From Hevea brasiliensis (taxonomy: Eukaryota; Streptophyta; Magnoliopsida; Malpighiales; Euphorbiaceae): DNA of 64,000 bases. The DNA lies in NCBI RefSeq assembly GCF_030052815.1, contig NC_079510.1:8193375-8257374 (forward strand), in the 5' to 3' direction. Shown piece after piece: positions 3,447-62,400 of this stretch (positions are counted from its first letter, which is position 1; each line of letters starts with the position of its first letter). The notes beneath the pieces were generated by a model, which did no database searches, had not been told where the DNA came from, and saw only the letters and a program-made list of their open reading frames with translations. The position numbers were made by a program, and so were the translations under genes.

Positions 3447-6400
3447 TGTCACACCCTACTCCTCGTAAGATGTAACATGTTCCCGTAGTACACCTAATGA
3501 ATTATCGTACTTCACCTACCGGTAACCCATTAAATATACTACAAGGGATTTTAAAACAATTTTCGTTCATTTTGGAATTGGTGGGTAAATTTTTTTTCAA
3601 ATATTAAAAGTCTTTATTTAAAGTCCAAACATAAATCAAATTTTTAGATATTTAAGATTTCCATAATTTTATAAAAATTTCGGCGGAGTGCCGTCTGTAT
3701 TTTGAGAAAACAGTTCTTCAAAACCTGAAAATAAAAACACTCCCAATATTTTTCTCAATCACAACTTCATTTGCAACCACCAAACTTCAAATCAACAACA
3801 ATGGCAACACTTCAACTCAAAATCCAAATTTCAAATCAAAAATTAATAACTCAAAACATTTCATAAACTCATGCACATTGCATTTCAAATCATTAATTTA
3901 CAATCATAAGTTAATTTACAATCATAAGTTAATTTACAGATGCAAAATCTCAAAAATAATATTATTACAATTTTATCTGTACAACTGCTCAAATTACAGA
4001 GATACATATGCATACTATCATATTTACATCAAACTAAACTACCAGGGTATAGACAATACCCGTACAGAATTTCTTCAACCGTGCTCCTCTCTGACTGTAG
4101 CAGCTCACTCTACTGCTATGTCCTTTTCTCTATCTGCGACAGCAAGTTAAAGCTATCGCTGAGTATAAAGATACTCAGTGGTGCACAATAAAAACGTAAA
4201 ATATATAATTTAAAACATTCATGAACCATTCATAATTCAAATATTTCACAATCATATTTCAAATTTTCAAATCACATTTATAACAAATCATAATTTTCAA
4301 AGCTTAACACAACACAACTTTGATCAAATAATTCAATAAAGATAGTGTTGCCAATCAATAACACAACTTAGGCAATGACACAAAATTTCCGAACATGCCG
4401 TGTGTACATCACGACAAGGCAAACACCCCCACTAATCGAAATCAATGAGGGAGGTGGCTAGCTAGATAATGAGTACTCATCCAAACTCGCCCCTCAAACT
4501 GGAAAGTCAGAGAGGGAGGAAACTGATCAAATATCAAACTCACCCCACAAGTGGATGAGGAACATATTAATATTGTCATACCAAGTGTGAATTAAAAACA
4601 ATTTAAATCAAAAGCATCATAAATACTTCATCATGGTAATGTCACAATTCAATATTTCAAATTATTCAAAACAATTTAAATCAAGTTATTCAAACATTTC
4701 ATACAATTCACAAATCATATTTCATTCCAAACTTTTCATTTTCAAAGTAGGCAACACACTATTTTTCAAATAAGACTTTCAAAGTCATAACTAAATTCAA
4801 AACCATTTGTTCAAATATTTCATAGAAATCAATAAATAATTTTCATTCCAAATTTCCATTGAAAAATAGGCAACACAACATTCTCGAAATTCACAATGAA
4901 CAAAACACATTCACAATGTATAACAAATCAATTTCCATTATGAAAACTATAATATAAAAATTTTTGTGCACAAACCTGATGCGAGTCGCCTATCGGCCTT
5001 GACTCGATTCCTCGGGTCCTTTCCCGGTGTTCTTTTCCACTGAAACACACAGTTTCACAGTCTTTCAGTATCATAACTTACCATAAATCCAATAATTAAT
5101 TCATAAATACTTAATTCTAGCTCAAATATGCTTAAACTAACGTTCTTAGAAAATTTCATTTCGGGGTTACTATTCACTACACTATTCAAGTCAAATTGTT
5201 GACTTTCTAAGGCTTAATAGGTATGGGAATTCCAACTTCACCCACATACCACATTTTGGTCATTAAATTTGTTGGTTTTGGTCATTTTCTCAAAGCTTAG
5301 GTCTTTTAGGCAAAATTGCCAATTTTCGGTTTTGGAGTCCTAAGTTGCACTGTTTCATTAGTCCTTTTACTGTTGGAATTTGGCAAACCTTCCTTCATAG
5401 AAAATGTTCCTTATTGTCTTAAGTGTATTCTCATTTTTGAATCACCCCAATTGGAGTTTTTTAGCTCAAGTTATAGCCAAAATACAATTACTGTTCACGT
5501 GCACTGTTCATGCTGCAATTTTGGTTCTGGCAGATTTTTGATCCAACTTTGTTCAGTAATTTGATCAAGTTAAGTGCATAATTTGGTCTAATTTCCTACA
5601 TAAAAAATGTTCTACTATATCTTAGGTTTCCATCAGTTCAAGAATCGCCTAAATCGGAGTTTTCTAGAGAGAGTTATAGCCATTGGAACTTTACTGTTCA
5701 AATGGAAATCTGCAGTTTTGCAGGTTCAGTAACCCAACTTTGCTCAATAATTTGGTTAGGTTAATGGCATAAATTGGGTTGGTGTTCTTCATAAAAGTTT
5801 TAGATCTATATCTTATCTAATTACTGGTAAAATTTCAGGTCATTTTGACCTACCTACCTCGAGTTATGACTAAATGAACATTCATTTGGTCAGTTTGTGC
5901 AATGACAGACTGCTCTTATTCAACTTTGGTCAATTTGTTCACTAGGTTTTGGTCAGTTTTTGAGCATGGTTCCTAAATGAAAATTGTGTCATTTTACGTC
6001 TATTTTCATCCCCAATTGGTGGCATATCAATTGGACTTGTAAAATTTCAGTTTTGGTCCTTCAAAGTTGACTTGGTCATGCTGCCAGCAGCATGATCATA
6101 CAACCTCCGAATTTGGCTTCACTTCTAATAATTCAAACACAACTTATTTGGTCACAATTGACCATTTTTCAGTTCACAATAGGTCAAACATGCCATTTAC
6201 TCATTTCTTGCATTTTTGGTTCACAAACCCTAAGTTCAAAACCCTAATTCATGTCATTTGTTGCATTTAGCTACTTTCAAGGTCTTTAATCATAACCACT
6301 CACTAATTTAAGTTTCTAAACCCATTTAAACCATTCAAATCATGCAAATCACCCTCCCCCTTCATGCTGGCCGAATTTCAGTTTGGTCCCTCAATAAATT

Positions 6401-7178
6401 TTCTTTCCATTTTAAGTTTATTTACAAGTTAATCAAGCTAAAAATGCAACAATTAAACTAACTTCACATCTTAAATCACTAACCTTGTTAGGTGTCTTTG
6501 AGCTTTCCTTTTTTCCTCTTTCTTTGATGACCAATCTCCTTCCCAAGTGACTAGAACAAGTTTTTATGAAGTTTCTATGGAAGCTATTGAGGTTTAATGA
6601 AGGATTGTAAGCTTGAGTGCAAGCTTTAATGGAGGATATCCATGGGGAAATGAGGGAGAGTGAGGGTGGCAAGGGAGAAAGGAAGAAGAAGACTTTTGGT
6701 TTTTTTGTTTTTCTTTTCTTTATTTATTTTGTCTTATGGAAGACCCCAAAAATTCATTTAATCAAATTATTAATTATGGGATTTATGGCATCATGCATGA
6801 TGTCATGCATGACGTCATATCCCTACACCTTTTTCATTTTCTTTTTTTTTATTTCTTTTTCTATTAGTTCTTTAATTTAATTCTCGATTCCGAAATTTTC
6901 TTTTGTCCAATTTTATTTGACAATTAGGTCAGGAGTCAGCTCTCGGGGTCAATTGACCAAATTGCCCCTCGCCGGTTCATCCCGGTTTGCAATTAATTCC
7001 ATATTTCTTCCGGCTCCCTGACCTAATTATTTGACTGGCTTAACAGTTCTTTTTCGTGATTTTCTCTTTTCCACTGTGTTTATAAGGGTCCTAAGGACCG
7101 CAGCGTCACTTTTTACGGTTCAAAATTTGAGTTTAAAACGACTTCGTAGTCGTTCCTGAGGAGGTCACCCATCGCTGT
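3447..7178 (-). repeat. Element C, right LTR (5' LTR in sense), first part
   Basis: It starts TGTCACACCC, directly outside the PBS. It runs to 7178, where element A is inserted, and continues at 28806-28997, for about 3.9 kb in total. It contains the double stem-loop at 4136-4178 and degenerate ~190-bp units around 5470, 5663 and 5865, each marked by a GAGTTATRRCC-like core and a TTTCAGGTCA-like core. Small frames within it are not supported as genes. Confidence 0.88.
4136..4178 (-). promoter_or_regulatory. Double stem-loop in element C LTR
   Basis: Two adjacent inverted repeats are present. CTGAGTAT (4159-4166) pairs with ATACTCAG (4171-4178) across a 4-base loop. GCGACAGC (4136-4143) pairs with GCTATCGC (4152-4159) with one wobble. 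Equivalent pairs occur in the LTRs of B, E and F with different bases but pairing kept. Role unknown; position and conservation suggest a structure in the 5' part of the element RNA. Confidence 0.6.
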
Positions 7179-10100
7179 TGTCACACCCTACTCCCCTGTA
7201 AGATGCAACATGATCCCGTAGTACACCTAATGAATTACCGTACTTCGCCTACCGATAACCCATTAGATATACTACAAGGGATTTTAAAACAATTTTCGTG
7301 AAATATAAATTATCGATTAAAATCTGGTGTTATAAAATTTTTTCAAAATTTCGGCAAAGTGCCGACTATATTTTGAGAAAACAGTTCTTCAATCTTGCAA
7401 AAGAAAATGCTCCCAATATGTTTTCTCAAATACAACTTCAATAACTTCATTTCAATTCACAATTCAATTCTCAATAAACAATAAATTCATTTTCAAACTA
7501 CTCTCATCATAAAGAAACATTTCATTGATTACAAGACTCAAAATTTATAATACAAAACTATTTAAGTAAATGAAATCTCAACTTTATATTTACAATAATT
7601 TAAATTTAATTACATAACAAAATATTTTACAAGAGTTTTTATATAACTGCTCAAATAATTTACATACATATTATTACATGCATACATCAAAACCTATGTA
7701 CATGGGTATACCTATGATATACCTGGAGCTGATCTGAAAGTGTCTTCAAAAAACTTACTCACTGCTCTATGCTCTTTTTACTGTGATAAAGATACAAAGC
7801 TATCATTGAGTGGTGAACTTCGATGGTGCACAACTATAATTTAAAACATAGTACAATATACATTGACAAAATTTACAGTAAATAATTTGGAAATCTGAAT
7901 ACTCATCAAATTCTAAAACTCAAAATATTCATTGCCAATAATGTAAATCATTTGTATAAATGACTTTGATCACAAAATTCAATTTATCAAATCATGACTA
8001 ACCATTTAAGTAATTCCAACAAAATCAATTATACATAAACCATAATTGAAATCACAATTCTTTACCATTCAAAAGCCATTCTGTATCTCAAAAATCATTA
8101 TGTATCTCAAAAATAATTATGTATCTCAAAAACCTTGTTGTATCTCAAAAATCAATCTTTATCTCACTAACTATGCAAGACTAATCCGAAAGGGCCATAT
8201 TTGATGTGATTCTAACTCCCTATGGTCGGGAAGGTCAAATCAGATTCTAACTCCCTATGGTCGGGGAGGTCGAATCATCGTGCACAGTACCATCACAATA
8301 ATGAATCTTCCGCAAGGGCCATAACGATAAAATAAACTTAGATCTAACCTCAAATCAGAGGAAAATCTAAGCCTGTGCACGTACCATGGTAATCAAAACA
8401 CCAATATCTCCATTGTCTTCTCAACAAATGAGAGAGATGGGTAATAACCTAGTCAAGCATCAATAGTGAGATATAAAACAATATCACAATCCTTTTTATG
8501 AGCATAAATCACAATATAATTCGATTCAAATTCAATTCCAATATCCAATAATTTTTATGCTCATCACAATTCAAATCATAAATTTGCAATTTTCCATGAA
8601 AATTACCATCACCATTCAAAACATGTTCTATCACAATTTTTCAAAACATAATTTATTCAATCCATAACAATGCTTAATACTTGTGGAAATACCATTTCAC
8701 AAAGCTAAACTCATACATACTATAACAATTTTCAATAATCATTGAATTAAATCTAATGCTTGTTAAACATAATACATAAGAAAAAATGTCATTTAATCAT
8801 ATGAAATATTCAAAACAAAATCAGTTAAAAACTAGTTGTGCACAAACCTCTGATAACTGTCTCTTGGCTCTGACTCAGTGTTTCCTTCCCCTTCCCTGAG
8901 TCTTTGCTAACTGAGAAACACAATTTGAAGTGTTTCAGTACTCATTTAAATTGTCTCTAAGAATAAGGTTTAATAATTAATTTATCGAATTCTATTATTT
9001 CCTTAGTCAACCTAATATGTTGACCCTCGATGCATTCTAGGTAAATTAGGTTTTAATGTTACTAACATGTCACATTCAATAGTCTTTTAGGGTTGGTACA
9101 TGTTACCAAGTTCATTTCTGTGTATACTGCATTTTCTTGCAATTTGTTGGATTCCGGGATACTAGTTTGACCTAGTCGGACTACCTAGTTCTCTCGGTTT
9201 TCGGGTTTCGGTCAATACTACAAACTTTTAGATCTATGTCTTATTGCACGCGGGGCAAAATTTCAGGTCATTCTGAGTTATGTAGACCAAGTTATGGTCA
9301 TTTTACTATTGCTGGTCAAATTGCACTAAAATTTGTCATTTTAGGTCACTTTAGGTCATTTTAGGTTCGGCCAGTTTTTGAACCCGAACTTGTGCAAGCT
9401 GTTTGACTTGCTTATGGTCATTTCTGGGCTTTTGTGTCTTCATAAGACTTGTAGGTATGGGTCTTAACTATTCATGGTTAAAATTTCAGGTCAATTGGAC
9501 CTGTTTTGAGTGAGTTATGGCCTAAACACTAACTACTGCCCAATTGGTCAATTTTCAGGCCTCAATTGCACTTAATCCGGATTTGGTCATTTTTCAAGCT
9601 ACCTTGCAGGCAGAATTTTGGCAAGCTTCCTTCATGAAAGTTGGCAAATTTTGTGTCTAGTTTCACCTCCAATTGGTCTCATACCAATTGGAGCCACACA
9701 CTTAAAGTTATAGGCCTAAAACTCAAACTGCCTTATTGCATTTCTTGCATACACATCAAGCATCACTTTTAACACTCACCAAACTTAACATTCAAACCAA
9801 TTCTGGTTGTACCACAACCTAAACATAATTCAAAACACATTATAAGTCATTTCGGTAGCTTACAATTACATTCAACATACACCAACAAGTGCAGAATTTT
9901 TCAATCCAATTTACAACAATTCAATCACCTTTTTATGCTCATTTACATGTCCCACTTCACACCACCTTACACACACTCAAACTGCCATAACAACCAACAC
10001 ATTTTAACATCATTATTCCATAAACCAAGCATGAATTCCAGCACTCTTCAAGAGCTAATAAACTGCCACAATGGTACACTTACATTCCATTACTTTCCAA

Positions 10101-13688: not shown

Positions 13689-16600
13689 TGTAACACCCCT
13701 AAGTTAGGTAGTGCGTTCTACTGTTCCGGTGGCCAGTACTGTCCGAACAGTTAGGATGCCTAGAACTACATTTCGATATGAGTAAGGAGACATAAAATAG
13801 TGAAATACAAGAAAAGAAAATACAAGAAAAACAAAGGAAAAATAATAGCAAAGAAGAGTAACCAAGTTAAGCGAGCCGGGAACCCTAGCGATGGGTGACC
13901 GCACCGGGAAGTCACGGCGTGAACCGTTGACTATCCCTGGACTGCGGGGAACCCTAGAAAATATTTTTTGGACTTAAAGAGACATCAATTGAAGTATAAA
14001 TATCATTAGAAATAACAAAGAAAAATTAAATAATTAGTACAAAGAAAAGTGAGAAATCGAAAAACGGACAAAACCCGGTGTTACCGAAAAATCGGGAATG
14101 CAACCCGAACAGGGGCATTATGGTCATTTGACATTCCGAATTGTCTTTTGACCTAAATGTCCATTAAAAATAAATAATATTACACTTGGAAAATATAATG
14201 AAAAATTAATTTGGTGGTACCTAAAGTAAATAGCAAGAATTAAGGGTTTAATGTGGAATAAGTGGGAATTAAACTTATTAAATGATTAATTTGTGTGAGT
14301 GGGCCACTAATGAATAAAATAAAAACATAATGGGGCAGCTGTAATTCCATTATACAAGCTGAAATGTTCATCTTCTCCATTTCCCTTAACCTTGCTGAAT
14401 TGAAGGAAATGAAACCTCCATTGCCATTTTCTTTCAAGCTCACCTAACCTCCTCATTTCACTTCCAATCATTTAGGTTTCTTCATTAAAGATTGTCTACA
14501 CATCATAAGGAAGAGCTTGATACCAAAATTAAGAAGTTTAATCAAGGTTTAGCAAGTTCCAACCATAGGTAAGTTTACATTTTTGAATATTGCTTTGTTA
14601 AACTTTGTGTACATGTTATGGGTGTTGGATTTGTGAAGAAAATTTTCAAGTTTGAGGAGTTATTGATATGTCCATTTTGGACAGCCATGGAGTTATGTAT
14701 TTAATGATTTATTATTACATATATTTGATGTAAATTCATGTTGAGTAGAGGGATTTAATATCCTAGTAAGTTATTTCCATGAAAATGTGGTGATTGTGCA
14801 CTTAAATTGGAGATTGACGAATTGTGGGATACTTTGGCATTGTAGAACATTTCAGCAGCCTTGGGACACTTTGATAAATGTATGAGTTCATGAAGGTATT
14901 GGCAGAATATTGACTTTGAGGATTGATGGATATGTATATAGATTGGTTGTGTAAAGTGTATGTAAGAATGAGTAATGTTTAGGTGTATATGTGATTGTAC
15001 TTAGACTTTGTAAATTTGAGTTTTAATTGGTGTATTGAGGATAATTGTAATCTGCCCAAAGTGACTTTAAAGTGAAGTGGTATATGGTTTTGGTAATGTA
15101 CCAAAACAGAATTGGTAAGGGAAGTGGACATATAGTGAGGTAAATGTGTCATTGATGTATGTTTAAGCAAGGTAATTAAGGGCAGTATGCATTTTAGCTT
15201 ATAACTTTAAATGTGTAACTTCAATTGGTATGAGACCAATTGGAGGTGAAACTAGGCACAAAATGTGCCAACTTTCATTAAGAAAGCATACCAAAATTCT
15301 ACTTGCAAGGTGACATGAAAAATGACCAATTCGGATTAGGTGCAATTGAGGCCTGAAAATTGACCAATTGGGCAGCAGTTAGTGTTTAGGCCATAACTCA
15401 CTCAAAACAGGTCCAATTGACCTGAAATTTTAACCATGAATAGTTAAGACCCATATCTACAAGTATTATGAAGACACCAAAGCCCAGAAATGACCATAAG
15501 CAAGTCAAACAGCTTGCACAAGTTCGGGTCCAAAAACTGGCCGAACCAAAGTTGACCAAATTGACCTAAATTGACCAAATTTGATGCCATTTGACCAGCA
15601 ATAGTAAAATGACCATAACTTGGTCTACATAACTCGTAATGACCTAAAATTTTGCCCCGCGTTCCATAAGACACAGATTTACAAGTTTGTAGTTTTGATC
15701 AAAACCTGAAAACCGAGGAAACTAGGTCGTCCGGCTAGGTCAAACTAGTATTCCGAAATCCAGCAAAATGCAAGAAAACGCAGTATACATAGAAATGAGT
15801 TTGGTAACATGTACCAACCCTAAAAGACTATCGAATGTGACACATTAGTAACGTTAAAACCTAATTTACCTAGAACGCATCGAGGGTCGACATATTAGGT
15901 TGACTAAGTAAATATTTGAATTCAGTGAATTACTTATCGAACATTATCTTTAGAGACAATTTAATTTAGTACTGAAACACTTCAAATTGTGTTTCTCAGT
16001 TAGCAAAGACTCAGGGAAAGGGAAGGAAACACTGAGTCAAGACCAAGAGACAGTTATCAGAGGTTTGTGCACAACTAGTTTTTAACTGATTTTGTTTTGA
16101 AAATTTCATATGATTAAATGACATATTTTTCTTATGTATTATGTTTAACAAGCATTGGATTTAATTCAATGATTATTGAAATTGTTATAGTATGTATGAA
16201 TTTAGCTTTGTGAAATGATATTTCCATAAGTATTAAGCATTATTATGGATTGAATAAATTATGTTTTGGAAAATTGTGATAGAACATGTTTTGAATTGTG
16301 ATGGTAATTTTCATGGAAAAATACAAATTTATGATTTGAATTGTGATGAGCATAAAAATTATTGGATATTGGAATTGACTTTGAATCAAATTATATTGTG
16401 ATTTATGCTCACTAAAAGGATTGTGATAGTGTTTTATATCTCACTATAGATGCTTGACTAGGTTATTACCCGTCTCTCTCATTTGTTGAGAAGACAATGG
16501 AGTTAGTTGTGTTTTGATTTCCATGGTACGTGCACAGGCTTAGATTTTCCTCTGATTTGAGGTTAGATCTAAGCCCTTGCGGAAGATTCATTATTGTGAT

Positions 16601-17621
16601 GGTACTGTGCACGATGATTCGACCTCCCCGACCATAGGGAGTTAGAATCACATCGAATATGGCCCTTTCGGATTAGTCTTGCATAGTTAGTGAGATAAAG
16701 ATTGATTTTTGAGATACAGAATGGCTTTTGAATGGTAAGGAATTGTGATTTCAATTATGGTTTATATATAATTGATTTTGTTGGAATTACTTAAATGGAT
16801 AGTCATGATTTGATAAATTGAATTTTGTGATCAAAGTCATTTATACAAATGATTTACATTATTGGCAATGAATATTTTGAGTTGTGGAATTTGATGAGTA
16901 TTCAGATTTCCAAATTATTTATCAGAAATTTTGTCAATATATATTGTATTATGTTTTAAATTATAGTTGTGCACCACTGAGTTCACCACTCAGCGATAGC
17001 TTTGTATGCTGTCGCAGGTAAGAAGAGCATAGAGCAGTGAGTAAATTTCTTTGAGGATACATTCAGATCAGCTCCAGGTATATCATAGGTATACCCATGT
17101 ACATAGGTTTTGATGTATGCATGTAATAATATGTATGTAAATTATTTGAGCAGTTGTATAAAAACTCATGTAAAATATTTTGGTATGTAATTAAATGTAA
17201 ATTATTGTAAATGTAAATTTGAGATTTCATTTTCTTGAATAGTTTTGTATTATAAATTTTGAGTCTTGTAATCAATGAAATGTTTCTTTATGATGAGAGT
17301 AGTTTGAAAATGAATTGATTGTTTATTGAGAATTGAATTATGAATTGAAATGAAGTTATTGAATTTGTATTTGAGAAAACATATTGGGAACATTTTCTTT
17401 TGCAGGATTGAAGAACTGTTTTCTCAAAATACAGTCGGCACTTTGCCGAAATTTTGAAAAGATTTTATAACACCAGATTTTAATCCATGACTTAAATTTC
17501 GCAAAAATTGTTTTAAAATCCCTTGTAGTATATTTAATGGATTATCGGTAGGAGAAGTACGGTAGTTCATTAGGTATACTACGGGATCATGTTACATCTT
17601 ACAGGAGAGTAGGGTGTGACA
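13689..17621 (+). repeat. Element B, left (5') LTR, 3933 bp
   Basis: It starts TGTAACACCCC and ends GGGTGTGACA, and matches 20585-24557. Compared with the right LTR it lacks two short segments, a ~20-bp piece after 16570 and one copy of the doubled CTCCCTATGGTCGGG-type unit near 16625. A TATAAATA is at about 13994. ~190-220 bp degenerate units start near 15200, 15390 and 15611. The double stem-loop is at 16977-17015. Confidence 0.92.
16977..17015 (+). promoter_or_regulatory. Double stem-loop in element B left LTR
   Basis: CTGAGT (16977-16982) pairs with ACTCAG (16988-16993), and GCGATAGC (16993-17000) pairs with GCTGTCGC (17008-17015), one pair being a wobble. A TATATAT-like AT-rich tract lies ~35 bases upstream. 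CAG|GTAAG at 17015-17022 matches the 5' splice-site consensus. Whether RNA starts or is spliced here is inference. Confidence 0.6.
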
Positions 17622-17629
17622 TGTTTTAG

Positions 17630-17641
17630 TGGTATCAGAGC
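17630..17641 (+). other. Element B primer-binding site (tRNA-iMet)
   Basis: TGGTATCAGAGC lies eight bases after the LTR end and is complementary to the 3' end of initiator-Met tRNA, which would prime minus-strand DNA synthesis. Confidence 0.88.
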
Positions 17642-17808
17642 AATGGTTTTAAAGTAAATTTCGAACTATGAATTTGAAATCTTTTTGTCGGTAACCACAA
17701 CTGCTCAAATGTTTGATACATATAGTACATTTACATCATAAATATGAACTAATGGAGAGGAATCTCCTTATGTTGGTTGTACAGGAATAGAAAATCTTGT
17801 GAAAAGAT

Positions 17809-23500: not shown

Positions 23501-24557
23501 TTCATTATTGTGATGGTACTGTGCACGATGATTCGACCTCCCCGACCATAGAAGTTAGAATCTAATTCAACCTCCCCGACCATAGGGAGTTAGAATCAAA
23601 TCGAATATGGCCCTTTCGGATTAGTCTTGCGTAGTTAGTGAGATAAAGATTGATTTTTGAGATACAGAATGGCTTTTGAATGGTAAGGAATTGTGATTTC
23701 AATTATGGTTTATATATAATTGATTTTGCTGGAATTACTTAAATGGATAGTCATGATTTGATAAATTGAATTTTGTGATCAAAGTCATTTATACAAATGA
23801 TTTACATTATTGGCAATGAATATTTTGAGTTGTGGAATTTGATGAGTATTCAGATTTCCAAATTATTTACTGTAAATTTTGTCAATATATATTGTATTAT
23901 GTTTTAAATTATAGTTGTGCACCACTGAGTTCACCACTCAGCGATAGCTTTGTATGCTGTCGCAGGTAAGAAGAGCATAGAGCAGTGAGTAAATTTCTTT
24001 GAGGATACATTCAGATCAGCTCTAGGTATATCATAGGTATACCCATGTACATAGGTTTTGATGTATGCATGTAATAATATGTATGTAAATTATTTGAGCA
24101 GTTGTATAAAAACTCTTGTAAAATATTTTGGTATGTAATTAAATGTAAATTATTGTAAATGTAAATTTGAGATTTCATTTTCTTGAATAGTTTTGTATTA
24201 TAAATTTTGAGTCTTGTAATCAATGAAATGTTTCTTTATGATGAGAGTAGTTTGAAAATGAATTGATTGTTTATTGAGAATTGAAATGAAGTTATTGAAG
24301 TTGTATTTGAGAAAACATATTGGGAACATTTTCTTTTGCAGGATTGAAGAACTGTTTTTTCAAAATACAGTCGGCATTTTGCCGAAATTTTGAAAAGATT
24401 TTATAACACCAGATTTTAATCCATGACTTAAATTTCCCAAAAATTGTTTTAAAATCCCTTGTAGTATATTTAATGGATTATCGGTAGGAGAAGTACGGTA
24501 GTTCATTAGGTATACTACGGGATCTTGTTACATCTTACAGGAGAGTAGGGTGTGACA
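20585..24557 (+). repeat. Element B, right (3') LTR, 3973 bp
   Basis: It matches 13689-17621. Its first bases are TATAACACTCC instead of TGTAACACCCC, so the terminal TG has decayed to TA. It ends GGGTGTGACA at 24557, followed by the CTGTT duplication. The double stem-loop is at 23925-23963 with the same paired bases as in the left LTR. Confidence 0.92.
23925..23963 (+). promoter_or_regulatory. Double stem-loop in element B right LTR
   Basis: CTGAGT/ACTCAG followed by GCGATAGC/GCTGTCGC, identical to the left LTR copy although neighbouring bases differ, and again followed by CAGGTAAG. Confidence 0.6.
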
Positions 24558-24773: not shown

Positions 24774-27700
24774 TGTCACACCCTACTCCCCTGTAAGATG
24801 CAACATGATCCCGTAGTACACCTAATGAATTACCGTACTTTGCCTACCAATAACCCATTAGATATACTACAAGGGATTTTAAAACAATTTTCGTGAAATA
24901 TAAATCATCGATTAAAATCTGGTGTTATAAAATTTTTTCAAAATTTCGGCAAAGTGCCGACTGTATTTTGAGAAAACAGTTCTTTAATCCTGCAAAAGAA
25001 AATGCTCCCAATATGTTTTCTCAAATACAACTTCAATAACTTCATTTCAATTCACAATTCAATTCTCAATAAACAATCAATTCATTTTCAAACTACTCTT
25101 ATCATAAAGAAACATTTCATTGATTACAAGCTCAAAATTTATAATACAAAACTATTTAATTAAATGAAATCTCAACTTTATATTTACAATAATTTACATT
25201 TAATTACATACCAAAATATTTTACAAGAGTTTTTATACAACTGCTCAAATAATTTACATACATATTATTACATGCATACATCAAAACCTATGTACATGGG
25301 TATACCTATGATATACACAGGTGATCCAAAGTGTCTTCAAAAACTTACTCAACGCTCTATGCTCTTCTTACTGCGACAAGATACAAAGCTATCATTGAGT
25401 GGTGAACTCGATGGTGCACAACTATAATTTAAAACATAGTACAATATACATTGACAAAATTCTGATAAATAATTTGGAAATCTGAATACTCATCAAATTC
25501 CAAAACTCAAAATATTCATTGCCAATAATGTAAATCGTTTGTATAAATGACTTTGATCACAAAATTCAATTTATCAAATCATGACTAACCATTTAAGTAA
25601 TTCTAACAAAATCAATTATACATAAACCATAATTGAAATCAAAATTCTTTATCATTCAAAAGCCATTATGTATCTCAAAAATCATTATGTATCTCAAAAA
25701 TAATTATGTATCTCAAAAACCTTGTTGTATCTCAAAAATCAATCTTTATCTCACTAACTATGCTAGACTAATCCGAAAGGGCCATATTCGATGTGATTCT
25801 AACTCCCTATGGTCGGGGAGGTCGAATCAGATTCTAACTCCCTATGGTCGGGGAGGTCGAATCATCGTGCACAGTACCATCACAATAATGAATTTTCTGC
25901 AAGGGCCATAACGATAAAATAAACTTAGATCTAACCTCAAATCAGAGGAAAATCTAAGCTTGTGCACGTACCATGGTAATCAAAACACAACTATCTCCAT
26001 TGTCTTCTCAACAAATGAGAGAGATGGGTAATAACCTAGTCAAGCATCAATAGTGAGATATAAAACAATATCACAATCCTTTTTGTGAGCATAAATCACA
26101 ATATAATTTAATTCAAATTCAATTCCAATATCCAATAATTTTTATGCTCATCACAATTCAAATCATAAATTTGCAATTTTCCATGAAAATTACCATCACC
26201 ATTCAAAACATGTTCTATCACAATTTTCCAAAACATAATTTATTCAATCCATAACAATGCTTAATACTTGTGGAAATACCATTTCACAAAGCTAAATTCA
26301 TACATACTATAACAATTTTCAATAATCATTGAATTAAATCTAATGCTTGTTAAACATAATACATAAGAAAATATGTCATTTAATCATATGAAATATTCAA
26401 AATAAAATCAGTTAAAAACTAGTTGTGCACAAACCTCTGATAACTGTCTCTTGGCTCTAACTCAGTGTTTCCTTCCCCTTCCCTGAGTCTTTGCTAACTG
26501 AGAAACACAATTTGAAGTGTTTCAGTACTCATTTAAATTGTCTCTAAGAATAAGGTTCAATAATTAATTTATCAAATTCCATTATTTCCTTAGTCAACCT
26601 AATATGTTGACCCTCGATGCGTTCTAGGTAAATTAGGTTTTAATGTTACTAACATGTCACATTCAATAGTCTTTTAGGGTTGGTACATGTTACCAAGTTC
26701 ATTTCTGTGTATACTGCATTTTCTTGCAATTTGCTGGATTCCGGGATACTAGTTTGACCTAGCCGGACTACCTAGTTCCCTCGATTTTTGGGTTTCGGTC
26801 AATACTACAAACTTTTAGATCTATGTCTTATTGCACGCGGGACAAAATTTCAGGTCATTCTGAGTTATGTAGACCAAGTTATGGTCATTTTACTATTGCT
26901 GGTCAAATTGCACTAAAATTTGTCATTTTAGGTCACTTTAGGTTCGGCCAGTTTTTGGACCTGAATTTGTGCAAGCTGTTTGACTTGCTTATGGTCATTT
27001 CTGGGCTTTGGTGTCTTCATAAGACTTGTAGGTATGGGTCTTAACTATTCATGGTTAAAATTTCAGGTCAATTGGACCTGTTTTGAGTGAGTTATGGCCT
27101 AAACACTAACTGCTGCCCAATTGGTCAATTTTCAGGCCTCAATTGCACTTAATCCGGATTTGATCATTTTTCAAGCTACCTTGCAGGAAGAATTTTGGCA
27201 AGCTTCCTTCATGAAAGTTGGCACATTTTGTGCCTAGTTTCACCTCCAATTGGTCTCATACCAATTGGAGCCACACACTTAAAGTTATAGGCCTAAAACT
27301 CAAACTGCCTTATTGCATTTCTTGCATACACATCAAGCATCACTTTTAACACTCACCAAACTTAACATTCAAACCAATTTTGGTTGTACCACAACCTAAA
27401 CATAATTCACAACACATTATAGGTCATTTCGGTAGCTTACAATTACATTCAACATACACCAACAAGTGCAGAATTTTTCAATCCAATTTACAACAATTCA
27501 ATCACCTTTTTATGCTCATTTACATGTCCCACTTCACACCACCTTACACACACTCAAACTGCCATAACAACCAACACATTTTAACATCATTATTCCATAA
27601 ACCAAGCATGAATTCCAGCACTCTTCAAAAGCTAATAAACTGCCACAATGGTACACTTACATTCCATTACTTTCCAAGCTTTAAATCTCATTTTACATTT

Positions 27701-38844: not shown

Positions 38845-38852
38845 CTGAAACA

Positions 38853-41800
38853 TGTCACACCCTACCCCTCTGTAAGGCATAATATGATCCCGTAGTATAC
38901 CTAATGAATTACCAACTCCGTCTACTAATAACCCATTAAATACACTACAAGGGATTTTAAAAACTTTTCTTACTTCTTTTACAGTGGTGAGCACTATTTA
39001 CAGGTGTTAAAAACCTTTTTGAACTGAAGTGATAGAACTAATGCATTTGAATTATTTGGAATTTCTGTAAAAATTTTGGCAGAATGCCGTCTGTATTTTG
39101 GATAAAACAGTTCTTCAGAAAACCTGTAAAAAGACACTTCAATATATTTCCAAATCTCAACTCCAACACATTTCTCAACACAACATATTTATCAACTCAA
39201 TTCCATAGTGATTTTTCAAAGATTGAGATATAAGAAATATAATACAACTTTTACAAGCCAAAATAACTCATAATTATCTTGCAACCTCAAGTTACAATTT
39301 GAATTTACAACTGCTCAAACCAAAACAATATGTACATACAGTGGTCATACATTACAGTATAAAATGCAAAAAGTGGTATACTCATTATACCCGAAAATCT
39401 CTTGCTGTAGATACTAGCAGCCTAGTCTGCTGCCCTGTCTGTTTGTCTGTCTACCTGCGACAGCAATAAAAAGCTATCGCTGAGACAATGTCTCAGTGGT
39501 GCACAACATTAACCAAATACAATTTAAATCACAATTCATAAGTCATGTAAATAGTAGATACTTAAAACTATAGTTAAATTCAAGACAATAAATGTCAATA
39601 AGAATTTAAACTCATTTCACAATCTTACAATATGCAACAATAAATCACACACAGCTTTAATCATGTTCTCAAGTTCAATTCATCCCAAAAGCCGATGGCT
39701 AATGAGGTATTCAATTCATCCCAAAAGTCAATGACTAATGAGAAATAACACAGCTAGCTAGCAAAAATATGAGTACTCATTCTATTCGTCCTCAACAGGC
39801 ACACACCTCAACACTTCAGCCAGAGAGGGAATTCAATTCATCCCACTAGACAAGCTAGCGAGGAATACAATCAATGTACATGATAGCTGTGGTTTCAAAC
39901 CAATTACAGTGCTTTTCAATCAATAAGTATCCATCAAATACCATTCAAACCATTTTTCACAATTTCACAACTTAAAACAATAATATGCAAATAGTCATAA
40001 TTTATTTCAATTGAAAATAATTCAAAAGAAATAGTTGTTGTGCACAAACCTCTGATGACTGTCTCCTGGTTTGGACTCAGTGTTTCCTTCCCTTTTCCTG
40101 AGTCTTTACTAACTGAGAAACACAATTTGAAGTGTTTCAGTACTAAATTAAACTGTCTCTATCGATAATGTTCGATAAGTAATTCACTGAATTCAATTAT
40201 TCACTGAATACCTTTATTTGCTTAATCACCTAATATATCGACCCTCGATGCGTTCTAGGTAAATTAGGTTTTGAAGTTATTAATATATCATTTTCGATAG
40301 TATTTTAGGGTTGGTACGTGTTACCAAACTCATTTCTATGTATACTGCGTTTCCTTGCATTTTATTGCAAATTGCTGGATTCCGGGATACTAGTTTGACC
40401 TAGCCGGACAACCTAGTTCCCTCGGTTTTCGGGTTTCGGTCAAAACTACAAACTTGTAGATCTATGTATTATGGAAAGCGGGGCAAAATTTTAGGTCATT
40501 CCGAGTTAAGTAGACCAAGTTATGGTCATTATACTATTACTGGTCAAATGGCATCAAATTAGGTCAATTTTAGGTCAATTTGGTCAACTTTGGTTTGGCC
40601 AGTTTTTGGACCCGAACTTGTGCAAGCTGTTTGACTTACTTCTGGTCATTTCTGGGCTTTGGTGTCTTCATAAGACTTGTAGGTATGGGTATTAACTATT
40701 CATGGTTAAAATTTCAGGTCAATTGGACCTGTTTTGAGTGAGTTATGGCCTAAACACTAACTGCTGCCCAATTGGTCAGTTTTCAGGTTTCACTTACACC
40801 TAATCCGAATTGGTCATTTTTCATGCCACCTTGCAAGCAGAATTTTGGTATACTTTCTCAATGAAAGTTGGCACATTTTGTGCCTAGTTTCACCTCCAAT
40901 TGGTCTCATACCAATTGAGGTTACACATTTAAAGTTATAGGCTAAAATGCATACTGCCCTTAATTACCTTGCTTAAACATATATCAATGACACATTTACC
41001 TTACTATATGTTCACTTCCCTTACCAATTCTGTTTTGGTACATTACCAAAACCATATACCACTTCACTTTAAAGTCACTTTGGGCAGATTACAATTATCC
41101 TCAATACACCAATTAAAACTCAAATTTACAAAGTCTAAGTACAATCACATATACACATAAACATTACTAATTCTTACATACACTTTACACCACTAATTTA
41201 TATACATATCCATCAATCCTCAATGTCAATATTCTGCCAATACCTTCATGAACTCATACATTTATCAAAGTGTCCCAAGGCTGCCTGCCGAAATATTCTA
41301 CAATACCAAAGTGTCCCACAATTCGAATTCGTCAATCTCCAATTCAAGTGCACAATCACCACATTTTCATGGAAATAACTTACTAGGATATTAAATCCCT
41401 CTACTCAACATGAATTTACATCAAATATATGTAATAATAAATCATCAAATACACAACTCCATGGCTGTCCAAATTGGATATATCAAGAACTCTTCAAACT
41501 TGAAAATTTTCTTCACAAAGCACACACCCATAACATGTACACAAAGTTTAACAAAGCAATATTCAAAAATGTAAACTTACCTATGGTTGGGACTTGCTAA
41601 ACCTTCATTAAACTTCTTGATTTTGGTATCAAGCTCTTCCTTATGATGTGTAGACAATCTTTAATGAAGCTATCTAAGTGATTGGAGGTGAAATGGAGGG
41701 AAGGATCAAGCTCTAAACCAAACAGCAATGGAGGATTTTCTTCTCTTCAATTCGGCATGGATGAGGAACCTTGAAGAAATGAATTTGTAGATTTTATATT

Positions 41801-42458
41801 AGGTGTACACATGCCCCATTTAACTCTTAGTTTATTCCTTTAGTGGCCCACTCACTCAATTAATCATATAATATATTTAATTCCCACTTATTCCACATTA
41901 AACCCTTAATTTTTGTTATTTACTTTAGGTACCACCAAATTAATTTTTCATTTTATTTTCTAATTGTAATATTATTTATTTTTAATGGAAATTTAGGTCA
42001 AAAGACAATTCGGGATGTCAAATGACCATAATGCCCCTGTTCGGGTTGCATTCCCGATTTTTTGATAACACCGGGTTTTATCTGTTTTTCGATTTCTCAC
42101 TTTTCTTTGTACTAATTATTTAATTTTTCTTTGATCTTTCTAATGATATTTATTCTTCAATAAGGGTCTATTTAAGTCCTAAAATATTTTCCGTGGTTCC
42201 CATGATCAGGAGCTAGTCAACGGTCCACGCCGTGACTTCCTGGTGCGGTCACCCATCGCTAGGGTTCCCGGCTCGCTTAACTTGGTTACATTTCTTTGCT
42301 ATTATTTTTCCTTTGTTTTTCTTGTATTTTCTTTTCTTGTATTTCATTATTTTATGTCTCTTCACTCATATTGAAGTGTGGTTCTAGGCATCCTAGCTGT
42401 TCGGACAACACTGGTCACCGGAGCAGTAGAACGCACTACTAAACTTAGGGGTGTTACA
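38853..42458 (-). repeat. Element E, right LTR (5' LTR in sense), 3606 bp
   Basis: It matches 30398-33991 almost throughout. Small insertions relative to the other copy are near 39437 (CTGT/TTGT repeats), 41281 and 41325. The double stem-loop is at 39457-39496. Degenerate ~190-bp units are near 40450, 40665 and 40855. Confidence 0.93.
39457..39496 (-). promoter_or_regulatory. Double stem-loop in element E right LTR
   Basis: Same two paired segments as 30998-31037, unchanged: CTGAGACA/TGTCTCAG and GCGACAGC/GCTATCGC. Confidence 0.62.
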
Positions 42459-42863: not shown

Positions 42864-45800
42864 TGTAACACCCTCCCGGTAGCAACTCCGTACATTCTAC
42901 TGTTCCGGTGACCAGTGTCGGTCCGGACAGCTAGAATGTTCGGAAAAATATTTAAACTAAAGTGAGAAACCATAATTAACTCAAATATTAATAAGAAAAA
43001 TTTATTAAAAATTTTAGAAATAAAATACAACCAAGTTAAATGAGCCGGTGACCTAGCGATGGGTAACCTAGTGAGAAGTTGCGGTTCTCGCAACTAGGAG
43101 CCCTAGACCCGGGGGAAAAATTATAAAATAATTTCTGGGACTCCAGAGAAGGGTTATAGAGGTTCTTATGGCATTAGAATGCCAAGAAAATACTTAGAAA
43201 AAAATTTCAATCGGTACAGACAATTTTGGCCCGTTAAGCCAAACGGAGGGCATTTTGGTCATTTCATCTTCAAAGATGATTTTTGGCCGACTTGTCTAGT
43301 TAAGTAAATAATTATTATGACATAAAATGTGAATAAATATTACTAAAAATTGAATTGAAAATGAGTAGAAAAGAAAAGAAAAAAAATGAATTAAATGGAA
43401 ATTTATGACATCACATGATGTCATTAGTGTGCCTTCACCCAATTACATGGTAACACATGGCATAAACTAACTTAAAAGAGGTCAAATGGGCTGGAAAATG
43501 AAGAAAATCAGACTTTTCTTTCTTTCTTCTTGCTCTTGCCGTGAACCATTCCACTATAACCACCATTAACAAATTTCTAAACCTCCATTTCCCTAGCTTT
43601 CTTCCACCAAAAGCCCTAGTTGTCTTCACAAAAAATTCACCCCACACCTTGAGGAAGCTTTGGGCAGAAAAATTTTGAAGAAAAATTAAAGTTTTGGTTG
43701 GCTTGGATTTAAGCTAAAAGAGGTTAGTGACCTAAACCTTGAATTTCACTTAAATTTCATGTTTAAGAACTATAAATATGTGTAAATGACAAAGAAATTT
43801 GATGAAACACCATTGGTATGCTAACCCTAGATTTTGGCAGCCATGGTTAGGGTAATATGATGATGATTTTTGGAGAGCTAAGATACTAGTATGGCTGCCC
43901 TTAATGTGTATCTTATAAGTGAATTGATAAATGCAATGATAATGCATGGTTTGGAGATGTTGAGTTAGGGTTTGGGTTGAAGAATGAGACTTTGATCTTG
44001 TGATGATGGGAGTAGGTTTTAATGGTCAATTAGTGACCATTTGGTTTGGTTTGAATAAAAAATGAAGTGATTTGGGTTGTGGGATTTGAGGTTGGAGTGG
44101 CTGCCTTATATGACCTGCAGGTTGGATGTGAGTCCAGCCTGTTTGGACAGCCATAACTTAAATTGTAGAGGTTCAATTGGTGTTTGGCCAATTGTACATG
44201 AAACTAGACACAAAATGACACAACTTTGGTGAAGAAACCATGCCCATAAGACCAAACTAAGTGGACCAAAACCTTGCTCCAATCCGGGTGACCTGCAATC
44301 TGCCTGGGCAAAATGACTAAATGAATAGTATTTGGTCATTTGGCCATAACTCAATGTAGCAAGGTCCAATTGACCTGAAAGTTTACCAGAAACAAGTTGA
44401 GATATAGACCAACAACTTTTGTGAAGAAACCTGACCAAAATTATGACCATAACCTAGTCAAATTGCCAACCAAACTTGGGTTACCAAATCTAGCAGAAAT
44501 AATTTTACCCAGAATTTTGGAATCTGTCCAATCCGGCCAGTTATGGTTTTTAGGCCATAACTTGAGCTACAAAACTCCAAATGGAGTGATTCAAAAAAAG
44601 AAATTCAACTAGATAAAATAAGGAACAACTTTCATGTTTATCATTTTTCCAAATTCCCACTGCAACAGTAACTAATGGAATAGTAACCCCAAAGCTTGAA
44701 AACTGAAAATTTTGTCCAATTCACATTAAGCTTAGAGATGGTATTGGCAACCAATACCAACAAGTTTCAAATACAAAATGTGGTATGTTGATGATATTTA
44801 AACTAATTTACCTATAGCCAATGCAAAAGTCAACATTTTGGTTGACCAATGAAATGAATAGTAATCATAAAAATTTAATTTCAAAGAATTGCATAAATAA
44901 AAAGTGTTAAATTCCCTAGTAGGCCTAGTGTGATTGGTTTAGATAGGTTGGCATGCCAATAGGGTTACATTAGCGATCTGCATAGGGCGTCATGCCATTA
45001 TGTATTTCATGGCTTCCCATGCCATTCTGTGACATAATAGCCTTTGGCTATGATATTGAGTTGTTATACTCGGGTTTAATACCCGACAATTATCACGACT
45101 TATTAGTGCATTACATTGCCAGGAGACACAATGTGACCGATGGTGTGATGGTCCAAGTACTTAGTACCCGATGCAGTTACCGTTTATCGATCCGATTAAC
45201 TAGTATAGGTTTCTCGGGCAGTATTAATAAATCTTACCAAACTTCAATTGAATAATATTGCAATAAACATTTGAGACTTAGTTCACCCAAAAATGTAAAT
45301 ATACATTATGTACACTTGTTTTTATTTTATTTTATTTTATTTTATATTGTCACCACTAAGCAGAATTGCTTAGCGTGTCGCTTTTGCCACGCGCAGGTAC
45401 TGGAGACATAGCTGGGAGTCAGCGGGCCTCATCTGAGGTGAGCCTTCATATCTGCACTCAGAGTTCAGAGTCACCTCACATTGCAGTGCATTTGGTAGGA
45501 CATTAGGCCACTCTTGATATTTTGATATTTTGTAACTTTCTGTAATGTATATTATAAATTCATGTAATCAAGCTTTTGATGTAAGTATCTATGAAATATG
45601 TTCAGTAATAAATTGAGCATTTTTCATTGAGTTGACCGTGTTTTGAATTGAATTGAATTTTGAGATACTGAAGTGAATTGAGAAATTGTTGAGTATATAT
45701 TGGAGGTTGATTGAGAATAATGTGATGATATTATTGGGAGTGTTTTTAACAGGTTCAGAAGAACTGTTTTTCCAATTTATAGCCAGCACTCTGACGGATT

Positions 45801-45954
45801 TTCTATAAAATTTGTGGAAAAATTTAGTTTTATCAGAAATTATAAATAAATGAATTAAAAGGGATTAATTGAAATTGAAACATGAATTGGTGTTCCGACA
45901 CACTAAGTGGCATAACTTGCTCGGCTAAACTGTAGACGGGTAAGGGGTGTCACA
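42864..45954 (+). repeat. Element F, left (5') LTR, 3091 bp
   Basis: TGTAACACCCTCCCGG to GGGGTGTCACA. It matches 59455-62559. Degenerate units start near 44150, 44341 and 44550, each with a GCCATAACT core and a CAACTTT.ATGAAGAAACC-like end. A (TTTTA)n microsatellite is at about 45320-45346, and the stem-loop pair at 45356-45392. Confidence 0.92.
45356..45392 (+). promoter_or_regulatory. Double stem-loop in element F left LTR
   Basis: CTAAGCA (45356-45362) pairs with TGCTTAG (45367-45373) across GAAT. GCGTG (45373-45377) pairs with CACGC (45388-45392). It sits at the position equivalent to the stem-loops of B, C and E, with different stem bases, and is followed by GCAGGTA. In the right LTR (61952-61990) the first stem is intact and the second has one mismatch. 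Confidence 0.55.
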
Positions 45955-45959
45955 TTTAG

Positions 45960-45971
45960 TGGTATCAGAGC
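45960..45971 (+). other. Element F primer-binding site (tRNA-iMet)
   Basis: TGGTATCAGAGC starts five bases after the LTR end. Confidence 0.88.
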
Positions 45972-46081
45972 ACGGTTTAGGCGTTTCTGAGCCTAGATTG
46001 AGTCCATACCATGCATTGCATTTGTAAGAGTTGAGGTGACACTAATGCAGATCTGTTTGTCTTTGTTATTTTGAATAGGAT

Positions 46082-57300: not shown

Positions 57301-57307
57301 GGGAGAT
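57294..57307 (+). other. Element H polypurine tract
   Basis: GCTAGTGGGAGAT directly precedes the right LTR, the usual copia PPT form. Confidence 0.8.
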
Positions 57308-59401: not shown

Positions 59402-59454
59402 CTGTTTGCATTAGGTAAATTTTAAGGACGAAACTTAAATTAGAGGGGAAGAGT
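59402..59454 (+). other. Element F 3' end: target duplication, pre-PPT motif and polypurine tract
   Basis: After the CTGTT duplication, F resumes with the GGTAAATTTTAAGGACGAAA motif that also precedes the PPT in B and C, and ends with the purine run AGAGGGGAAGAG before the right LTR. Confidence 0.82.
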
Positions 59455-62400
59455 TTTAACACCCTCCCGGTAGCAACTCCGTACATTCTACTGTTCCGGT
59501 GACCAGTGTCGGTTCGGATAGCTAGAACATTCGAAAAAATATTTAAACTAAAGTGAGGAACCATAATTAACTCAAATATTAATAAGAAAAATTTAGTAAA
59601 AATTTTAGAAATAAAATACAACCAAGTTAAATGAGCCAGTGCCCTAGCAATAGGTAACCTAGTGAGAAATTGCGGTTCTCGCAACTAGAAGCCCTAGACC
59701 AGGGGGAAAAATTATAAAATAATTTCTGGGACTCCAGAGAAGGGTTATAGAGGTTCTTATGGCATTAGAATGCCAAGAAAATACTTAGAAAAAAATTTCA
59801 ATCGGTACAGACAATTTTGGCCCGTTAAGCCAAACGGAGGGCAGTTTGGTCATTTTGTATTCAGAGATGATTTTTGGCCGACTTGTCCAGTTAAGTAAAT
59901 AATTATTATGACATAAAATGTGAATAAATATTACTAAAAATTGAATTGAAAATGAGTAGAAAAGAAAAGAAAAAAAAATAAATTAAATGGGAATTTATGA
60001 CATCACATGATGTCATTAGTGTGCCTTCACCCAATTACATGGTGACACATGGCATAAACTAACTTAAAAGAGGTCAAATGGGCTGGAAAATGAAGAAAAT
60101 CAGACTTTTCTTTATTTCTTCTTCCTCTTGCCATGAACCATTCCACCATAACCACCATTAACAAATTTCTAAACCTCCATTTCCCTAGCTTTCTTCCACT
60201 AAAAGCCCTAGTTGTCTTCACAAAAAATTCACCCCACACCTTGAGGAAGCTTTGGGCAGCAAAATTTTGAAGAAAAATTAAAGTTTTGGTTGGCTTGGAT
60301 TTGAGCTAAAAGAGGTTAGTGACCTAAACCTTGAATTTCACTTAAATTTCATGTTAAGAACTATAAAATGTGTGTAAATGACAAAGAAATTTGATGAAAC
60401 ACCATTGGTATGCTAACCCTAGATTTTGGCAGCGCTAGTTAGGGTAATATGATGATGATTTTTGGAGAGCTAACATGCTAGTATGGCTGCCCTTAATGTG
60501 TATCTTATAAGTGAATTGATAAATACAATGATAATGCATGGTTTGGAGATGTTGAGTTAGGGTTTGGGTTGAAGAATGAGACTTTGATCTTGTGATGATG
60601 GGAGTAGGTTTTAATGGTCAATTAGTGACCATTTGGTTTGGTTTGAATAAAAAATGAAGTGATTTGGGTTGTGGGATTTGAGGTTGGAGTGGCTGCCTTA
60701 TGTGACCTGCAGGTTTAGATGTGAGCCCAGCCTGTTTGGACAGCCATAACTTAAATTGTAGAGGTTCAATTGGTGTTTGGCCAAATATACATGAAACTAG
60801 ACACAAAATGGCACAACTTTGGTGAAGAAACCATGCCCATAAGACCAAACTAAGTGGACCAAAACCTTGCTCCATTCCGGGTGACCTGCAATCTGCCTGG
60901 GCAAAATGACCAAATGAATAATATTTGGTCATTTGGCCATAACTCAATGTATCAAGGTCCAATTGACCTGAAATTTTACCACCAACAAGTTGAGATATAG
61001 ACCAAAAACTTTCATGAAGAAACCTGACCCAAATTATGATCATAACCTAGTCAAATTGCCAACCAAACTTGGGTTACCAAATCTGGAAGAAACAATTTTA
61101 CCCAGAATTTTGGAATCTGTCCAATCCGGCCAGTTATGGTTTTTAGGCCATAACTTGAGATACAAAACTCCAAATGGAGTGATTCAAAAAAAGAAATTCA
61201 ACTAGACAAAATAAGAAACAACTTTCATGTTTATCATTTTTCCAAATTCCCACTGCAACAGTAACTAATAGAATAGTAAATCCAAAGCTTGAAAACTGAA
61301 AATTTTGTCCAATTCACATTAAGCTTAGAGATGGTATTGGCAACCAATACCAACAAGTTTAAAATACAAAATGTGGTATGTTGATGATATTTAAACTAAT
61401 TTACCTATAGCCAATGCAAAAGTCAACATTTTGGTTGACCAATGAAATGAATAGTAATAATAAAAATTTAATTTCAAAGAATTACATAAATAAAAAGTGT
61501 TAAATGCCCTAGTAGGCCTAATGTGATTGGTTTGGATAGGTTGGCATGCCAATAGGGTTTTGTTAGCAGTACTGCATATGGCTTCATGCCATTCTGTATT
61601 TCATGGCTTCCCATGCCATTCTGTGACATAATAGCCTTTGGCTATGATATTGAGTTGTTATACTCGGGTTTAATCCCCGATAATTATCACAGCTTATTAG
61701 CGCTACATTGCTGCCGGAGACACAATGTGACCGATGGTGTGATGGTGCGAGGTACTTAGTACCCGATGCGGTTACCCATTTATCCATCCGATCCAACTAG
61801 TATAGGTTACTCAGGCAGTATTAATAAATCTTACCAAACTTCAATTGAATAATATTGCAATAAACATTTGAGACTTAGTTCACCCAAAAATGTAAATATA
61901 CATTATGTACACATGTTTTATTTTATTTTATTTTATTTTATATTGTCACCACTAAGCAGAATTGCTTAGCGCGTCGCTTTTGCCACGCACAGGTACTGGA
62001 GACATAGCTGGGGAGTCTAGCAGGCCTCATACAGGGTGAGCCTTCATATCTGCACTCAGAGTTCATAGTCACCTCACATTGCAGTGCATTTGGTAGGACA
62101 TTAGGCCACTCTTGATATTTTGATATTTTGTATTTTGTAACTTTCTGTAATGTATATTATAAATTCATGTAATCAAGCTTTTGATGTAAGTATCTATGAA
62201 ATATGTTCAGTAATAAATTGAGCATTTTTCATTGAGTTGACCCTGTTTTGAATTGAATTGAATTTTGAGATATTGAAGTGAATTAAGAAATTGTTGAGTA
62301 TATATTGGAGGTTGATTGAGAATAATGTGATGATATTATTGGGAGTGTTTTTAACAGGTTCAGAAGAACTGTTTTTCCAATTTATAGCCGGCACTCTGCC

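Follow-up and report, generated by a model that had tools for sequence, protein, structure and literature searches.

The intact long terminal repeats (LTRs) of four retrotransposons in a 64-kb window of Hevea brasiliensis DNA (the window being the whole stretch analysed here) carry two adjacent stem-loops, SL1 and SL2, at an equivalent position about 600–740 bases ahead of the LTR end. The window is plant DNA crowded with nested LTR retrotransposons. Comparison of the window with itself yielded five elements with long LTRs, A, B, C, E and F, which are Ty3/gypsy LTR retrotransposons. In the sense direction, the intact LTRs of B, C, E and F show GTGCACCAC (GTCACCAC in F), then SL1, directly followed by SL2 and a CAGRTA-like motif. 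We consider it probable that this pair is an RNA element at the 5' end of the transcript, which is under selection in an abundant, chromovirus-like group of plant Ty3/gypsy elements.

B and F lie on the plus strand, C and E on the minus strand, so that the plus-strand letters of the latter two are the reverse complement. In the 5' LTR of B, SL1 occupies 16977..16993 and SL2 16994..17014, followed by CAGGTAAG, and the 3' LTR repeats the same sequence at 23925..23962. The pair in the 5' LTR of C is at 4137..4178 (SL1 4178-4159, SL2 4158-4137, then CAGATAG) and that of E at 39458..39496 (SL1 39496-39480, SL2 39479-39458, then CAGGTAG), with an identical copy in the 3' LTR of E at 30999..31037. 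In F, whose SL1 is of a CTAAG type, the 5' copy is located at 45356..45391 (SL1 45356-45373, SL2 45374-45391) and the 3' copy, in which one SL2 pair is broken, at 61952..61987. The outer G of SL1 doubles as the outer G of SL2, and SL2 has 7 base pairs (bp) when counted without this overlap.

An earlier note on this DNA had quoted paired arms at seven positions in these families, all of which indeed carry them. Some of its details hold for part of the copies only. The second stem of F is as quoted in the 5' copy, which has T-A, but not in the 3' copy, where C stands opposite A. Likewise, the GCAGGTA said to follow the pair in B, E and F is present in B, E and the 5' copy of F, but is replaced by CACAGGTA in the 3' copy of F; C has GCAGATA at this place and A a shortened CAGTAA. 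The palindrome of E, described as nearly loopless, folds as RNA into a hairpin of 6 bp, or 7 if the outer C-G is included, with a loop of 3 nucleotides (nt).

With one row per family and A omitted, all 44 cells of six SL1 and five SL2 pairs are paired in B, C, E and F, and sliding one arm by 1–3 bases reduces this to 9–23 of 44. Three SL1 positions have changed on both sides between families (G-C/A-T; T-A/A-T/C-G; A-T/C-G, with B unpaired at the last), as have two SL2 positions, which bears out the earlier claim that the inner bases differ in a way that preserves pairing. The predicted RNA folds of B, C, E and F consist of two hairpins with -17 to -21 kcal/mol, a fold that A lacks. Against 200 dinucleotide shuffles the folding z-scores were -2.8 for B, -5.4 for C, -5.1 for E and -2.7 and -3.0 for F, compared to 0.1 and -0.2 for the two copies of A. 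Of the 2,060 45-base windows between -1500 and +560, none folded better in C and E, 5–9 did so in B and 11–27 in F. A three-base closing helix (ACC/GGU) after SL2 appears in the minimum-energy folds of B, E and F; it is absent in the CAGATA forms and no covariation is evident in it, and we make no claim for it.

A covariance model trained on one copy each of B, C and E, with F withheld, recovered all nine copies in the window and nothing else with an E-value below 1, the next match in the window having an E-value of 1.6. The withheld F copies, the 5' one included, were found at E-values of 0.0007 and 0.012, although the sequence similarity of F in the hairpin stretch hardly exceeds the AT-rich background (0.65–0.77 versus 0.64–0.69 in the flanks). 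The hairpins are thus kept while the flanking R-U5 region (terminal repeat and unique 5' part of the LTR) is close to background similarity, suggesting that the RNA start is among the more constrained parts of the LTR.

The element is not confined to the window. One CTGAG form, including the 5' arm of SL2, occurs in at least 30,132 exact copies in the 1.88-Gb genome from which the window comes, the reversed pattern in none. The outer five SL1 pairs are set by this search pattern and were not counted as pairing evidence; the sixth is a standard pair in 96 of the 100 matches listed and in 27 of 29 distinct inserts. In a blind sample of 20 x 10 kb (200 kb) from one contig, the covariance model found 21 sites, 16 of which were also found by a sequence-only model. 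This density of about one site per 9.5 kb corresponds to an order of 2 x 10^5 copies when extrapolated from that one contig. Six of the 21 blind sites are of the CTAAG (F-like) type with SL1 CTAAGC...GCTTAG. Their SL2 takes several forms, namely two like CGCGTTGC-TTTT-GTAACGCG (one with an altered letter), two CGCG-TNGC-TTTT-GCCA-CGCG and one shorter form, and the sixth site lacks SL2. The exact pattern had no match in the viral_contigs and genome_contigs collections, and protein-based searches there also gave none, plant DNA not being expected in either.

The earlier note had asked for covariation in a larger alignment. Our genome set contains 70 matches, 62 of them distinct, namely eight of the nine window copies (the 3' copy of F was below the cut), 41 from loci chosen by the pattern (L009-L048) and the 21 blind ones. 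Over the 62 distinct sequences 95.8% of the stem cells pair (shuffled mean 87.8), compared to 20–42% for slid structures. Changes on both sides affect 9 of 13 pairs and 47 cells (3.9 and 6.5 in the shuffled sets), and the covariation score is 0.266 versus 0.114. On none of five measures did any of 500 shuffles score as high, which answers that question in favour of the fold, within the limits of shuffle and slide controls. The blind sample alone behaves similarly, with 94.6% of cells paired (0/500 shuffles as high), 8 pairs with double changes (9/500), 32 doubly changed cells (0/500) and 16 further pair types (13/500). The double changes stem mostly from the split between the two types and from the inner SL1 pair.

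Three features of this alignment concern the kind of molecule on which the constraint acts. At one SL2 pair, (38,75), all 60 lettered rows hold a standard pair, with U-G in 40, U-A in 14, G-C in 4 and G-U in 2; this majority of U-G points to RNA, since T would not be retained opposite G in a DNA dyad. Loop lengths vary from 4 to 10 in SL1 and are mostly 7–8 in SL2, and the linker between SL1 and SL2 is zero in 61 of the 62 rows of what is a fitted alignment. Apart from its outer two pairs, SL2 of the F-like type differs in most letters, but the stems and the zero linker are kept. The fact that the shape of the hairpins is retained while their letters change suggests that the element probably benefits from the RNA shape as such.

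As to where this RNA begins, TATA-like sequences, scored with an approximate matrix, lie upstream of the CACCA anchor at -33 in B, -23 in C and, weakly, -26 in E, all distances being counted from the C of CACCA; A also has a weak one. Transcription would accordingly start at or beside CACCA, in which case the hairpins fill about +5 to +45. The suggestion in the earlier note of an RNA structure near the 5' end of the transcript is therefore supported by covariation as far as the structure is concerned, its 5' location being probable from the uneven TATA-like spacing.

SL1 and SL2, placed end to end, would then make up the initial ~45 nt of the genomic RNA, where R begins, and the two stems would presumably stack. 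Selection would act on the fold, leaving loops and inner pairs free to change as long as both stems and the zero linker persist. As for function, we tentatively propose a cap-proximal double hairpin that may serve as a control element of the R region and decide the fate of the full-length RNA. Such a structure would hold back scanning ribosomes and favour use of the RNA as genome, i.e. in packaging and reverse transcription. Should it be part of R, it would also stand at the 3' end of the RNA for strand transfer. In lentiviruses, TAR and the poly(A) hairpin are likewise available at the 3' end for strand transfer.

Several observations weigh against this interpretation. Promoter evidence is uneven, as C scores higher at -98 and E equally at -108, and F has no TATA-like match near its CACCA anchor. 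Many of the changes in the genome set are shared by descent, the alignment of 62 rows had been fitted to the structure, and the search pattern by which 40 loci were retrieved fixed most of SL1 and the 5' arm of SL2. In one recurring E-like form, ACATTGG, A faces G at the sixth SL1 pair, a mismatch present in 4 of 62 distinct rows. By manual count, both hairpins appear in the site's own minimum-energy fold at only 13 of the 21 blind sites; this is to be expected if most copies are decaying, the remaining sites having decayed to varying degrees. Moreover, the results do not distinguish translation control from packaging, strand transfer or cap protection.

Family A, too, argues against a strict requirement. 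Its SL1/SL2 region is decayed in the 5' LTR (25372..25416, minus strand, z = 0.14) and in the 3' LTR (7782..7828, minus strand, z = -0.24). The earlier note was right that A has lost pairs, and most losses are common to both LTR copies, suggesting that the damage predated copying and was probably already present in the copied RNA. Family A thus transposed with a decayed element, so that either the retrotransposon has no strict need of the hairpins in cis, or it can bypass them or make good their lack.

A different role for SL1 is suggested by the primer-binding site (PBS), although we regard it as unlikely. The same 12-nt PBS, TGGTATCAGAGC, is exact in all five elements of the window, and we take it to be the complement of tRNA-iMet. 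In B an 8-nt spacer and the PBS (17622..17641, plus strand, the PBS being 17630-17641) directly follow the 5' LTR; the other sites run down from 24766 in A, 3439 in C and 38844 in E and up from 45960 in F. The spacers between LTR and PBS are 17622-17629 (B), 38845-38852 (E), 45955-45959 (F), 3440-3446 (C) and 24767-24773 (A). In B, part of the spacer together with TGGT is complementary to the presumed RNA 5' end. Such pairing of the RNA 5' end with the LTR/PBS junction would make SL1 a switch that hides this strand. In the strong form the 5' end itself would prime, as in Tf1, and in the weak form it would only arrange the site of the tRNA primer.

ACCACTRAG is complementary to TTTAGTGGT, which spans spacer and PBS, in a single register over 9 bp in B and F, 12 in C and 13 in E (G-U counted), and the helix extends to the LTR end in E, C and F and ends 3 nt short of it in B. 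Among 17,785 overlapping windows of the five LTRs, equally good complementarity was found 0 times for E and C, 34 times for F and 294 times for B; among 3,561 duplexes, energies as good occurred 0 times for E, once for C and 5 times each for F and B. Of 23 elements with a PBS in a larger set, 18 show 9 or more contiguous pairs. In addition, the PBS lies 5–8 nt from the LTR end in the window elements, exceeding the spacing of up to three nt reported for sugar beet chromoviruses (PMC3605345). On the other hand, the perfect 12-nt tRNA-iMet-type site in all five elements makes tRNA priming the default. The complementarity amounts to only 5 bp in family A, and no types other than E and C, which account for 8 of 23 sites, go past 9 bp. 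The spacer is nearly constant across the subfamilies seen and does not track the inner SL1 arm, 7 of 24 family permutations matching the true pairing. The relevant section of a plant survey (PMC6317226) places self-priming in the Tcn1 and TAR lineages and not in other plant chromoviruses. The related proposal, that SL1 is a masked primer or clamp whose 5' arm would pair alternately within SL1 or with the junction, appears to us equally doubtful. If correct, it would mean that flowering-plant chromoviruses with a tRNA site also employ the 5' end of their own RNA in starting or positioning reverse transcription. The possible junction pairing, strong in the window controls and weak on covariation, is kept as a lead.

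Rather improbable, in our view, is that the palindromes are DNA elements, i.e. core-promoter or factor-binding dyads in which the paired changes are symmetric half-site changes. It is true that in B, C and E a TATA-like sequence shortly precedes them, where the core promoter probably is. However, the majority U-G at one SL2 pair, the variable loop lengths and the different stem letters of the F-like SL2 are odd for a protein site. Furthermore, G-U/U-G cells outnumber A-C/C-A cells by 68 to 14, and by 26 to 14 without SL2 pair (38,75).

Dimerisation through kissing loops, an idea of the earlier note, is very unlikely. Perfect hairpins near an RNA 5' end are a usual place for dimerisation signals, and 23 of the 62 SL1 loops contain a palindrome of at least 4 nt, e.g. 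CTAG. Palindromes of at least 6 nt, however, are found in only 5 of 62 SL1 loops and 1 of 62 SL2 loops. The SL1 loops are too varied (35 different loops in 62 sequences) for this idea, and variable loops on conserved stems argue against loop-loop contacts; extended stem-stem dimers are possible.

Finally, the hairpins could form the first exon ahead of a leader intron wholly inside the LTR and gate a splice donor CAG|GTA after SL2, which is just as improbable. With an approximate splice-site matrix, the best donor of R-U5 is CAG|GTAAGA at +47 in B and CAG|GTAGAC at +48 in E, that of F ranking third. An acceptor-like U-rich CAG|G follows in each family ~330–410 nt past the end of SL2, just ahead of the most conserved block, and a functional R-U5 intron is cited for simian immunodeficiency virus (SIV) and human immunodeficiency virus type 2 (HIV-2) (PMC1766366). 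However, only 30 of the 62 distinct sequences have AGGT, while 21 have CAGATA and 11 other letters. The CAGATA carriers include the C type and the commonest form, TCCTAGTA (25 of the 100 matches listed), and several of these donor-less copies have kept the acceptor-like block. Moreover, the top acceptor score of E falls on the SL2 end itself and the 3' copy of A has lost the acceptor. No intron-less copies were found in 1.88 Gb under one exact pattern, the number of possible parents being uncounted, and neither AT content nor upstream ATGs decided the matter. As a general feature we reject the leader intron, given the missing GT in 21 of 62 sequences, the acceptor blocks without donor and the lack of intron-less copies under that one pattern. 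In its passage on the subject, a 2005 paper (PMC1142308) states that no introns upstream of gag had then been reported for LTR elements.

The double hairpin at the RNA 5' end, which we prefer, has parallels elsewhere. Hairpins of the retroviral R region are well studied, and Ty3/gypsy elements account for a large share of many plant genomes. In human immunodeficiency virus type 1 (HIV-1), TAR and the poly(A) hairpin similarly stand side by side where R begins, at the 5' terminus of the genomic RNA. A neighbouring pair like this lentiviral one, with covariation, was also found here within the limits of shuffle and slide controls, but the plant pair differs in sequence and host, has shorter stems and is without a known transactivator. 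R-region hairpins are already known as a kind, and their occurrence in plant Ty3/gypsy elements would be new. Foamy virus (PMC3694450) has a structured R region with a splice donor upstream of the poly(A) signal; the plant motif is only donor-like, CAGATA replacing GT in 21 of 62 sequences. As in the SIV/HIV-2 leader intron mentioned above, donor- and acceptor-like motifs both lie inside R-U5 in the plant LTRs, but the GT of the plant donor-like motif is not conserved and no intron-less copy was found under the one exact pattern. The self-priming Tf1/Sushi chromoviruses, as outlined in the corresponding passages of PMC4600332, share an RNA 5' end complementary to the LTR/PBS junction, whereas the plant elements keep a perfect tRNA-iMet-type site (5/5) and their complementarity is short and includes G-U.

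No Rfam family reached its gathering score in the window. A literature search covering titles, abstract openings and selected passages, with few subscription papers, gave no description of this hairpin pair, plant chromoviruses included; the passages concerned of PMC11656987 and PMC2657110 contain nothing on it. A survey of LTR structure (PMC3601003) was unable to build models for plant Metaviridae owing to their variation in LTR length. The 5' RNA of plant Ty3/gypsy elements is little charted, and a compact 5' element that covaries and is present in tens of thousands of exact copies in a single genome provides a marker for the probable start of R. With the twin hairpins, it also becomes possible to test the packaging, translation and priming of RNA from plant retrotransposons on short RNAs.

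Turning to the elements themselves, A (minus strand) extends over 7179-28800, with its 5' LTR at 24774..28800, its 3' LTR at 7179-11223 and the target duplication ACAGC. Nested inside it is B (plus strand, 13689-24557), with a 5' LTR at 13689..17621 (TGTAACACC...GGGTGTGACA), a 3' LTR at 20585-24557 and the duplication CTGTT. C (minus strand) lies partly beyond the window; its 5' LTR occupies 3447..7178, is interrupted by A and resumes at ~28803-28999, and its 3' LTR (1-710) is cut by the window edge. E (minus strand, 30398-42458) has LTRs at 38853..42458 (5') and 30398-33991 (3') and the duplication GGTAA, and F (plus strand, 42864-62559) has LTRs at 42864..45954 (5') and 59455-62559 (3'). The target duplications are 5 bp long in A, B and E and contain one mismatch in F. 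The complete LTRs are ~3.1–4.0 kb long, start with TGTAACAC (the second base being altered in the 3' LTRs of B and F) and end with GTGTGACA, or GTGTCACA in F.

Between the LTRs, the Ty3/gypsy domains Retrotrans_gag, RVP_2, RVT_1, RT_RNaseH, Integrase_H2C2/rve and SH3_Tf2-1 are scattered across several broken copies. No chromodomain was matched by Pfam in the open reading frames scanned, though SH3_Tf2-1 is present; the frame of E terminates in a cut stretch resembling a chromodomain. The common Ty3/gypsy domains, the SH3_Tf2-1 integrase end and the tRNA-Met-type PBS are shared with plant long-LTR chromoviruses, and by general features the elements may be Tekay/Del-like. Among named matches, one reverse transcriptase reading frame shares 79% identity with a protein of Xanthoceras and 76% with one of Gossypium; its best match, at 95%, is a metagenome contig.

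The LTRs show further conserved parts. A block of 310–350 nt in U3, the unique 3' part, far upstream of the hairpins, is conserved in all five families (~67–69% identity to F; e.g. 15201-15509, 44149-44498, 9402-9711, 5718-6056 and 32135-32484); it contains repeated CCAATTG/CATAACT units, and no reading frame is open throughout the five translated copies. The most conserved R-U5 stretch among B, C, E and F lies at about +430 to +490 from CACCA, e.g. 17401-17461 in B, after the acceptor-like CAGG, and reads GAAGAACTGTTTT...ACAG, followed by a small CGGCA/TGCCG hairpin. The first 2.4 kb of the LTR are ~91% identical between B and E (13689-16083 versus 31570-33991), and their R-U5 regions have little in common beyond the hairpins, so that it looks as if LTR segments were exchanged. 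Within F lies a Ty1/copia-type element (50747-58587, with RVT_2 and LTRs of ~1.3 kb), in which the twin-hairpin model had no match at E-values up to 10. At 52893-53354 a repeat finder reported a tandem array with a spacing of 35 bases and nine overlapping copies.

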